Assembly (NCBI GenBank): GCA_022361215.1
Contig: JAKSBI010000190.1
Location: forward strand, 1-61,864
Direction of reading: 5' to 3'
From: Hyphomicrobiales bacterium
GTDB lineage: Bacteria > Pseudomonadota > Alphaproteobacteria > Rhizobiales > Methyloligellaceae
DNA length: 61,864 nucleotides
Part shown: positions 20,072 to 61,864 of the stretch, in pieces
Position numbering within the stretch: the stretch's first letter is position 1
Layout: the number at the start of each line of letters is the position of its first letter
Translations under genes and position numbers: made by a program
The notes under the pieces: generated by a model
Database searches by the model: none
What the model was told of the DNA's origin: nothing
The model's input: the letters and a program-made list of their open reading frames with translations, nothing else

Positions 20072-21037
20072 ATGCGTACTTATCTCGACTTCGAAAAACC
20101 GATAGCCGAGCTGGAAAGCAAGGTGGCCGAGTTGCGCGATATGTCGCGCGGCGAGGGCTCGTTGTCGATCCTGGACGAGATCACCACGCTCGAGGCCAAG
20201 ACCCAGGAAGCGCTTGAGGACACCTACGCCAATCTGAGCCCCTGGCAGAAGACGCAGGTCGCCCGGCACCCGGACCGCCCGCACTGCCAGGACTACATCG
20301 ACGCCCTGATAGACGACTTCACGCCGTTGTCCGGTGACCGCTACTTCGCCGAGGACCACGCCATCGTGGGCGGCCTCGGGCGGTTCGACGGCCAGACCAT
20401 TATGCTGATCGGGCACGAGAAGGGCTCGGACACGGAAACCCGGCTCAAGCACAATTTCGGCATGGCGCGGCCGGAAGGCTATCGCAAGGCGATCCGCCTG
20501 ATGCAGATGGCCGAGACCTTCGGCCTGCCGGTGCTGACGCTGGTGGACACGGCGGGCGCCTATCCCGGCGTCGGCGCCGAGGAGCGCGGGCAGGCGGAGG
20601 CCATCGCGCGCTCGATCCAGTGCTGCCTCAGCCTCAGCGTGCCGATCGTCGCCGTGGTGATCGGTGAGGGCGGCTCCGGCGGCGCCGTGGCCATCGCGAC
20701 CGCCAACAGCGTCCTGATGCTCGAGCATTCCATCTACACGGTGGCCTCGCCGGAAGCGGCGGCCTCGATCCTGTGGCACGACTCGAACCGCGCCATCGAC
20801 GCCGCGACCAACATGAAGATCACGGCGCAGGACCTGCTCGGGTTCGGCGTCATCGACGACATCGTGCCGGAGCCGGTGGGCGGTGCCCACAGAGACGTGA
20901 CGCGGACCATCTCCGATACCGGCGATACGATCCGGCGCACCCTTGCCGGCTATCGCGACATGGCCCCGGAAGAGGTCCGCTCCCACCGCCGCGAAAAGTA
21001 CCTCGCGATCGGGCGGCAAAACGCCGAACAGGGTTAA
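20072..21037 (+). CDS. accA: Acetyl-CoA carboxylase carboxyltransferase subunit alpha
   Basis: The protein has 321 residues with the standard opening TYLDFEKPIAELESKVAEL. Landmarks are RHPDRPHCQDYI, then GRFDGQTIMLIGHEKG, DTAGAYPGVGAEERGQAEAIA and GEGGSGGAVAIATAN, all family signature stretches. With AccD it transfers the carboxyl group from carboxybiotin to acetyl-CoA, the first step of fatty acid synthesis, in the cytoplasm. The accD gene is elsewhere. It follows xerD by 172 bases. Confidence 0.97.
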   Translation: MRTYLDFEKPIAELESKVAELRDMSRGEGSLSILDEITTLEAKTQEALEDTYANLSPWQKTQVARHPDRPHCQDYIDALIDDFTPLSGDRYFAEDHAIVGGLGRFDGQTIMLIGHEKGSDTETRLKHNFGMARPEGYRKAIRLMQMAETFGLPVLTLVDTAGAYPGVGAEERGQAEAIARSIQCCLSLSVPIVAVVIGEGGSGGAVAIATANSVLMLEHSIYTVASPEAAASILWHDSNRAIDAATNMKITAQDLLGFGVIDDIVPEPVGGAHRDVTRTISDTGDTIRRTLAGYRDMAPEEVRSHRREKYLAIGRQNAEQG

Positions 21038-21277: not shown

Positions 21278-22183
21278 ATGGGTCGTTCCACGACAATGCG
21301 GATTGGCATAGCGGCTGCCGCCGCCCTAGCGCTTGCCGGGTGCAGCCAGGATGTGCCGCCCCATCTCAAGCCCCTGCCGGCCGAGGCCAAGGCTCTGCTC
21401 GCCCAAAAGGGCATGCGCGAGGACGCGCCCATCTTCGTTCGGGTCTTCAAGGAAGAGTCCGAGCTGGAGGTCTGGAAGGCCAAGGACGACGGCCGCTACC
21501 ACCACTTCAAGACCTATCCGATCTGCACGTGGTCCGGAAAGCTGGGCCCGAAGCAGAAGCAGGGCGACAAGCAGGCGCCCGAGGGCTTCTACCGGGTGGC
21601 GCGGCGGCAGATGAACCCGAACAGCGCCTTCCACCTCTCCTTCAATCTCGGCTACCCGAACAGGTTCGATCGTGCCCACAAGCGCACGGGCGCCCACCTG
21701 ATGGTGCATGGCGACTGCAAATCGGCGGGCTGTTATGCCATGACCGACGCGCTGATGGAGGAGATCTACATCCTGGCGCGCGAAGCCTTCAACGGCGGCC
21801 AGGAGAAGTTCGACGTGCACGCCTATCCGTTCCGCATGACCGACGCGAACATGCGCCGTCACCGCTGGAGCAGGTGGCGCGGCTTCTGGAAGAACCTGAA
21901 GCAGGGCTACGACCACTTCGAGGCGACCCGTATTCCGCCGCGCGTCGAGGTCTGCGAGAAGCGCTATCTGGTCAACGCCGCCTTTGTCAACGAGGGTGCC
22001 AGGGTCGATCCGGCCGGCCGCTGTCCGGCCTATCAGCATCTTCCCGTCGAAGCGCTGCCGCCGGCGCCGAAGTTCCAGGAGGCCAAGTCCGGCACCAACC
22101 CGCAGGCGACCATCGGCTACGCGCCGAAGAAGCCTTCGGTCGCGGGCTTCGCTTTCCGTCTCAATTCCATTCTCAGCCGTTGA
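21278..22183 (+). CDS. L,D-transpeptidase family lipoprotein (copy 1)
   Basis: The protein has 301 residues (283-295 if translation starts at a later Met, for instance 21296). It begins with a lipobox (ALALAGC, Cys at about 22), so it should be lipid-anchored. The catalytic YafK/YkuD-like domain follows: VRVFKEESELEVW, then CTWSGKLGPKQKQGDKQAPE and GFYRVARRQMNPNS, ending in the active-site motif VHGDCKSAGCYAMTD with His144 and Cys152. Such enzymes cross-link or modify peptidoglycan or attach lipoproteins to it. A Pro/Lys-rich C-terminal tail is not shared with copies 2 and 3. It is the first of three tandem paralogues. Confidence 0.88.
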   Translation: MGRSTTMRIGIAAAAALALAGCSQDVPPHLKPLPAEAKALLAQKGMREDAPIFVRVFKEESELEVWKAKDDGRYHHFKTYPICTWSGKLGPKQKQGDKQAPEGFYRVARRQMNPNSAFHLSFNLGYPNRFDRAHKRTGAHLMVHGDCKSAGCYAMTDALMEEIYILAREAFNGGQEKFDVHAYPFRMTDANMRRHRWSRWRGFWKNLKQGYDHFEATRIPPRVEVCEKRYLVNAAFVNEGARVDPAGRCPAYQHLPVEALPPAPKFQEAKSGTNPQATIGYAPKKPSVAGFAFRLNSILSR

Positions 22184-22347: not shown

Positions 22348-23178
22348 ATGATCCGACTGTTTCTCGCTGTCTGCCTTGTCCTCGCCGCCATTTTCAGCTT
22401 CGAGCTTGCGCGCGACAACCGTACCGCCTGGCGTCTCGTCGACGATGCCCGCACGCTGGCGCTGCGGGTCGACCGGTACTTGCACCGTCGGACCGGCCGG
22501 CCGCTGCACGGCACGCCGGACGTCGGACGGCTGAAGGAGCGGCTGGCGGAGCGTGGCCTGGCCCTCGGCGCGCCGGTCTATATGCGCATCTTCAAGAAGG
22601 AGTCGGAGCTGGAGCTGTGGCTCAAGAAGGACGGCCGCTATGTCCGCTTCGCCAGCTATCCGATCTGCCGCTGGTCGGGCCATCTCGGACCCAAGCTGAA
22701 GGAGGGCGACCGGCAGGCGCCGGAAGGCTTCTACACCGTGTCGCGCGGTCAGCTGAACCCGAACAGTCGCTGGCACCGCTCTTTCAATCTGGGCTTCCCG
22801 AACGCCTTCGACCGCGCCCACGGGCGCACCGGATCCTTCCTCATGGTGCATGGCGGCTGCTCCTCGATCGGCTGCTATGCCATGACCGATCCGGTCATCA
22901 CTGAGATCTGGAACCTGGTGACGTCGTCGCTCGGCAACGGCCAGTCGCGCTTCCACGTGCATGTCTTCCCGTTCCGCATGACGGAGCGCAACCTGCGACG
23001 CCATCAGGGCGAGTGGCAGCCGTTCTGGAAGGACCTGAAGATCGGGCACGACCTGTTCGAGAGGTCGGCGCTGCCGCCTGTCGTGAGCGTCTGCCGCGGA
23101 CGCTATGTGTTCGAGCCCGGGACCGGGCGCGACGCCCGGGTCCGCGTGCGCTGCCCCAATGGGGCGCCGACCAGCTAA
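22348..23178 (+). CDS. L,D-transpeptidase family membrane-anchored protein (copy 2)
   Basis: The protein has 276 residues from the ATG at 22348, with GGGAG upstream; an in-frame TTG at 22327 is less likely. A signal-anchor helix covers about residues 3-20, and there is no lipobox. The domain matches copy 1: RIFKKESELELWLKKDGRY, CRWSGHLGPKLKEGDRQAPE, GFYTVSRGQLNPNS and the intact active site VHGGCSSIGCYAMTD with His168 and Cys176. The tail ends in CRGRYVFEPG and a final CPNGAPTS. It is likely a periplasmic peptidoglycan enzyme. Confidence 0.88.
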   Translation: MIRLFLAVCLVLAAIFSFELARDNRTAWRLVDDARTLALRVDRYLHRRTGRPLHGTPDVGRLKERLAERGLALGAPVYMRIFKKESELELWLKKDGRYVRFASYPICRWSGHLGPKLKEGDRQAPEGFYTVSRGQLNPNSRWHRSFNLGFPNAFDRAHGRTGSFLMVHGGCSSIGCYAMTDPVITEIWNLVTSSLGNGQSRFHVHVFPFRMTERNLRRHQGEWQPFWKDLKIGHDLFERSALPPVVSVCRGRYVFEPGTGRDARVRVRCPNGAPTS

Positions 23179-23230: not shown

Positions 23231-24001
23231 ATGCAATACTGGGGAATCGCCGTGCTGTGCTTGGCTGCGGGGCTCACGGCGGCGGGGCTGTTATATCTCG
23301 ACCGCAATGGCTTCTCCGGCCGGGCGATCAGCGCCGAGCCCGATCTGACCGGGCTCGAGCGACAGCTCGAGGCGCGTGGCCTCGCGCTTGGGGCGCCTGT
23401 TTTCCTGCGCCTTTTCAAGTCGGAGTCGAAGCTCGAGCTTTGGCTCCGGAAAGGCCGGCGCTACATCCGGTTCGCCAGCTACCGGATCTGCCGCTGGTCG
23501 GGAGAGCTGGGTCCGAAGCTCCGGGAAGGCGACGGGCAGAGCCCGGAGGGCTTCTACACGGTGGCACTGCGCCAGCTCAATCCGAACAGCCGCTGGCGCC
23601 GCTCCTTCAATCTGGACTTCCCGAACCCGCTGGATCGGGCCCGGGGCCGCACCGGCTCCTTCCTGGCCATCCGCGGCGGCTGCGGATCGCGTGGCAGCTA
23701 TGCCATGAGCGACCGGTCCATGGAGGAGATCTGGCATGTGGCGGCCGCGGCGCTGGCCAACGGTCAGCCGCGCTTTCATGTCCACATCTTCCCGTTCCGG
23801 ATGACGGAGCGGAACCTGCGCCGCTACCCGCGCAGGTGGCGCAAATTTTGGTCCAGCCTGAAGCCGGGGTATGATCTCTTCGAGCGAACGCAGGTGCCGC
23901 CGACCGTGAGCGTGTGCCGGCGCAGCTATGTGCTTCAGCCTGGAGCGGAGGGCGACGCGCCGATCCGCGTGCGCTGTCCGAGGGGCGTTCCGACAAGCTG
24001 A
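23231..24001 (+). CDS. Degenerate L,D-transpeptidase paralogue (copy 3), catalytic Cys and His replaced
   Basis: The protein has 256 residues from the ATG at 23231, anchored by a helix at about residues 5-22. It aligns with copy 2 along its length (RLFKSESKLELWLRKGRRYI, CRWSGELGPKLREGDGQSPE, LNPNSRWRRSFNLDFPN), but the active-site region reads IRGGCGSRGSYAMSD. The residue matching the catalytic His is Arg148 (CGC at 23672) and that matching the catalytic Cys is Ser156 (AGC at 23696). The frame is intact and the fold landmarks are kept, so it reads as an expressed pseudoenzyme rather than a broken gene. It starts 52 bases after copy 2. Confidence 0.85.
   Translation: MQYWGIAVLCLAAGLTAAGLLYLDRNGFSGRAISAEPDLTGLERQLEARGLALGAPVFLRLFKSESKLELWLRKGRRYIRFASYRICRWSGELGPKLREGDGQSPEGFYTVALRQLNPNSRWRRSFNLDFPNPLDRARGRTGSFLAIRGGCGSRGSYAMSDRSMEEIWHVAAAALANGQPRFHVHIFPFRMTERNLRRYPRRWRKFWSSLKPGYDLFERTQVPPTVSVCRRSYVLQPGAEGDAPIRVRCPRGVPTS

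Positions 24002-61322: not shown

Positions 61323-61864
<542 letters not shown>

Follow-up and report, generated by a model that had tools for sequence, protein, structure and literature searches.

A DpaA/YafK-type tandem duplicate without the catalytic cysteine and histidine in a Hyphomicrobiales genome: retained pseudoenzyme or early decay?

Three tandem paralogues lie downstream of accA in the window (the whole stretch of 61,864 nucleotides analysed here), and the third has neither the cysteine nor the histidine of the active site found in the other two. The locus thus raises the question of whether copy 3 is a pseudoenzyme that has been retained or a redundant duplicate at an early stage of decay.

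All three genes encode YafK/DpaA-type proteins and are read from the forward strand, as is their upstream neighbour accA (20072-21037, +). Copy 1 (21278-22183, +; 301 aa) carries the catalytic residues H144 and C152 and showed, by eye, a LAGC lipobox of the lipoprotein type. Copy 2 (22348-23178, +; 276 aa) is signal-anchored and carries H168 and C176, while copy 3 (23231-24001, +; 256 aa) has R148 and S156 at the corresponding positions. The closest relative of copy 3 is copy 2 (64% identity); its identity to copy 1 is 53%. The source assembly is MAG-like and fragmented (903 contigs, 99.7% complete, contamination 6.19), and the nearest named relatives of the tandem genes are Hyphomicrobium-like. 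The contig ends within a 16S rRNA gene (window positions 61323-61864, corresponding to model positions 1-577 of 1533).

Family assignment of the tandem genes

The original prediction described the three copies as L,D-transpeptidases, a label that had to be abandoned as all of them were best matched by the DpaA profile and structure. An Arg two residues after the catalytic Cys marks L,D-transpeptidases as opposed to DpaA-like proteins (PMC8263019). In copy 3 Ser156 is followed by Y157-A158, which ruled out a transpeptidase identity, and copies 1 and 2 also carry Ala at this position. The NCBIfam model LdtF_DpaA_YafK (NF040599) returned 244, 247 and 224 bits for copies 1, 2 and 3 respectively (E 1.2e-66 for copy 3), all below the equivalog cut-off of 365 bits. 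With the Pfam YkuD model, copies 1 and 2 scored 26.2 and 24.4 bits, above the cut-off of 23.4, whereas copy 3 scored 12.5 bits, below it.

The nearest solved structure to copy 3 is that of E. coli DpaA (PDB 8IKR; phmmer E 2e-58). The AF2 model of copy 3 had a pLDDT of 88.8 and a pTM of 0.84, compared with 91.8 and 0.87 for copy 2, and its Foldseek comparison with 8IKR returned an E value of 1.2e-23, a TM value by target of 0.92 and an rmsd of 1.8 over 188 columns. Both sequence and predicted fold place copy 3 within the YafK/DpaA-type YkuD family, and this DpaA-like prediction agrees with the earlier claim that the rest of the fold is kept. Since alignment-based AF2 is unreliable for point changes, all that can be taken from the model is that such a sequence could adopt this fold. 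Copy 3 resembles E. coli DpaA (LdtF, YafK), the amidase that releases Lpp from peptidoglycan (PG-Lpp amidase), in its single-domain fold, in the frame of its motif, in having Ala rather than Arg two residues past the catalytic position, and in 47% identity over the aligned domain.

The active site of copy 3 and the rarity of its loss

The reading frame of copy 3 is uninterrupted, with coding positions 23231-23998 and the stop codon at 23999-24001, and its 256 codons contain no internal stop, as had been predicted. Translation also bore out the proposed replacement of His and Cys by Arg148 and Ser156: the catalytic motif reads IRGGCGSRGSYAMSD in copy 3, compared with VHGDCKSAGCYAMTD in copy 1 and VHGGCSSIGCYAMTD in copy 2, both of which keep the two residues. 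The catalytic loop (residues 142-160, GSFLAIRGGCGSRGSYAMS; 23654-23710, +) contains the changes M146A, H148R, C156S and T160S.

The YafK/DpaA amidases are recognised by the Cys of the GCYAM motif, by a His eight residues before it and by the mDAP-binding lysine, Lys83 in DpaA. Copy 3 has Ser and Arg at the first two positions and retains the third as Lys96, a residue invariant in the homologues. In the alignment with DpaA, Cys143 and His135 are thus changed to S156 and R148, Met133 to A146 and Gly116 to D129, while Lys83 is kept as K96; Tyr109 corresponds to W122, and a Trp occurs in copy 2 as well. The C143A variant of E. coli DpaA is inactive (PMC8263019), and Lys83, which was docked at mDAP, is essential, as K83A is without activity (PMC10653827). 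As copy 3 has neither the nucleophile nor the His, amidase activity is very unlikely, and its sequence indicates that copy 3 is almost certainly dead as an amidase.

The description of the start signals as intact held for the start codon, an ATG being present at 23231, but not for the ribosome-binding site, as no Shine-Dalgarno sequence precedes this ATG. A candidate alternative start was read from the sequence at 23242-23254 (+), where GGGGA lies about 6 nt upstream of an in-frame GTG at 23252; with its better spacing, this GTG may be the true start in place of ATG 23231. A promoter and terminator scan was uninformative. The domain of copy 3 contains 3 His residues compared with 10 in copy 2, several having become Arg, and both its Arg content and its second-position GC are the highest of the clade.

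The occurrence of this active site was then examined in 135 homologues drawn from other genomes (family genomes and GTDB contigs), and the catalytic His and Cys were each kept in 135/135. Over the order, a non-Cys motif occurred in one of 397 genomes, copy 3 being the only match, and the intact motif in 262; the pattern accepted every codon at the Cys position except those with an initial T, and Tyr, Phe, Trp, Leu and variants without YAM fall outside it. A narrower pattern, starting with GGNTGY, likewise matched copy 3 alone, and the version of the motif with Ser encoded by TCN was found in 0 of 249 genomes. A motif invariant in the homologues and lost in one genome of the order is far beyond chance variation. 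A Ser/Arg clade, sought in the family genomes, the GTDB contigs and the order-wide motif patterns, had no member besides copy 3, and at the sequence level the active-site loss is unique in the examined material. The suggestion of a pseudoenzyme conserved across species therefore found no support among homologues from outside the genus, as the nearest of them (56-60% identical) keep Cys and His together with the whole set of 135. This is the outcome that the original prediction had named as pointing to decay, and the loss may be a recent one in a single lineage. In the source genome the Ser/Arg form does lie beside two intact paralogues, copies 1 and 2.

Of the 42 columns conserved in at least 93% of the sequences, copy 3 departs at five (G129D, M146A, H148R, C156S and T160S), copy 2 at one and copy 1 at none. 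Copy 3 breaks 8 of the 63 invariant columns of the copy-2 clade, compared with 0-3 in the other members, two of which have comparably long branches. Four of these eight breaks fall within residues 142-160; outside this loop copy 3 breaks four invariant columns and the two intact orthologues with comparable branches three each.

Origin of copy 3 and selection on its branch

The xerD-accA-copy 1-copy 2 block is conserved in relatives, and copy 3 is probably a lineage-specific addition that arose by duplication of copy 2, a grouping weakly supported in the trees (47/76 in one and 77/56 in another). The placement uniting copy 3 with the third copies of Hyphomicrobium-type loci was neither favoured nor rejected (p-AU 0.174). 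Under either placement, the sequences confine the active-site loss to the copy-3 branch, whose length is about twofold that of copy 2 (0.60 vs 0.27).

An intact third tandem copy follows copies 1 and 2 in the Hyphomicrobium-type loci (L040 4830-5855, L042 4700-5812, L043 4787-5710 and L044 4875-5888). These genes occupy the same position as copy 3 but keep His and Cys, their motif being mostly MHGGCSSVGCFAM and, in L043, VHGGCTSTGCFAM. Another genome (G021) carries three tandem copies at L122 2101-5394, two of them of the copy-1 type, indicating that the array expanded more than once. In a further genome a copy-2 orthologue is split over two frames (G020:C3:2680-3353), owing to either decay or an assembly error.

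Selection was evaluated by a custom codon branch model, in which omega is an average over the copy-3 branch before and after the loss. The model returned background values of 0.082-0.088 and values of 0.122-0.133 for the copy-3 branch (profile range about 0.07-0.25), a difference that was not significant (2dlnL 1.1-2.2). The dN/dS check suggested by the original prediction therefore yielded an omega of about 0.13, well below 1, as a branch average from a single genome. Omega = 1 was rejected for the whole branch with 2dlnL values of about 34 and 29, showing that most of the history of copy 3 passed under selection. Such an average cannot date the active-site loss. A model allowing a neutral tail fitted slightly better than one without, the optimum lying at about 8% of the copy-3 branch (2dlnL 3.9, a lnL gain of 1.94), and the gain persisted when the catalytic loop was left out (2dlnL 3.1, lnL gain 1.55), pointing to a mild relaxation that is not confined to the loop.

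That the best-fitting split of the branch includes such a tail is in keeping with the main alternative, which we rate somewhat below an even chance, namely that copy 3 is a pseudogene at an early stage, a redundant duplicate freed from constraint only recently, in which active-site changes were tolerated and stops and frameshifts have yet to arise. The loss in one genome with the other relatives all intact, the clade maximum of invariant-site changes, a second-position GC of 0.548 compared with 0.43-0.52 in relatives, the shifted amino-acid make-up and the missing Shine-Dalgarno sequence at ATG 23231 all fit the same course of events. However, neutral evolution over a dS of about 0.06 predicts 1.5 nonsense changes and 2 frameshifts (assuming indels at 5% of substitutions), none of which is present, and the probability of an intact frame goes from about 0.22, when stops alone are counted, to 0.03. 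The changes moreover cluster in the catalytic loop, affecting 4 of 10 conserved columns there and 1 of 32 elsewhere (Fisher p 0.008, for a region picked post hoc). Judged by its intact frame and by the rejection of neutrality over the branch, copy 3 is not an established pseudogene, though it may be at an early stage of becoming one, and between early decay and a retained pseudoenzyme we lean slightly towards retention.

Possible role of a retained copy 3

The reading that we put first, at only just less than an even chance, is that copy 3 is an amidase-dead tandem duplicate that is still made, exported and folded, and that most likely acts as a non-catalytic competitor. The duplicate would have arisen next to accA from one member of a pair of DpaA/YafK-type amidases, probably from copy 2. 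With the equivalents of Cys143 and His135 gone, it would leave the mDAP-protein bond unhydrolysed, as C143A in E. coli DpaA shows for the Cys. From its sequence, copy 3 would most likely still be produced and folded, with a hydrophobic segment at the N-terminus directing its export, and it keeps K96, the equivalent of the lysine that binds the mDAP carboxylate. By occupying peptidoglycan-protein linkages, or by pairing with copies 1 and 2, it could slow detachment; the regulatory or partner role put forward in the original prediction is likewise speculative. In Agrobacterium and its relatives, which have no Lpp, it is outer-membrane proteins that are tethered to peptidoglycan (PMC11527210), so that the substrate here would be the link between peptidoglycan and an outer-membrane protein.

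Degenerate LytM factors offer a precedent in concept only. EnvC, NlpD and ActS are related to hydrolases but, without catalytic activity of their own, serve as activators of amidases (PMC8360153, PMC8416486), and copy 3 may likewise be an inactive relative acting on active hydrolases; however, these factors have an unrelated fold, occur in many species and were experimentally tested, whereas copy 3 comes from one genome. When DpaA C143A was expressed in an E. coli dpaA deletion, Tri-LysArg was above the parent, which the authors attribute to the absent activity (PMC8263019), and this result does not show shielding.

The more specific proposal that copy 3 is a working pseudo-amidase, which binds the links between peptidoglycan and outer-membrane proteins without cutting them and thereby protects or tunes them, is in our judgement unlikely. 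Counting also against the competitor reading, substrate binding may be lost too, since the bulky and charged H148R and the smaller M146A occupy pocket positions and the invariant G129 is changed to D. To our knowledge, a pseudo-amidase protecting peptidoglycan-protein links has not been described for the DpaA family.

A changed chemistry, by which copy 3 would be active through Ser156 or another serine, for instance in a weak beta-lactam reaction such as that of Legionella Lpg1514, appears distinctly improbable, as a serine without a base in the site of a Cys enzyme, which would be the situation of Ser156, is usually inert. Lpg1514 and copy 3 have the YafK scaffold in common, and S120, a candidate for the equivalent serine on the basis of spacing only, is kept in copy 3. 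YafK proteins can slowly turn over beta-lactams by a conserved serine when the Cys is mutated (PMC13400389), so that a Cys-independent reaction is possible in Lpg1514. However, Lpg1514 keeps His and Cys, and its helper His166, eight residues before the Cys, whose mutation cut activity strongly (PMC13400389), is replaced by R148 in copy 3. An assembly or sequencing artefact, which a contaminated and fragmented MAG-like genome might suggest, is hardly credible, since 36% of residues differ between copies 2 and 3, the frame of copy 3 is open and the divergence is rich in synonymous changes; nor do the two catalytic replacements stand out as isolated errors.

In the case of decay, copy 3 is a redundant duplicate of the ordinary kind. 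If, instead, it has been retained as a non-catalytic protein, it would be such a member of a family in which the catalytic Cys and His are otherwise without exception in the examined material, and its position beside two intact paralogues would make the regulation of peptidoglycan-outer membrane tethering in Hyphomicrobiales testable.
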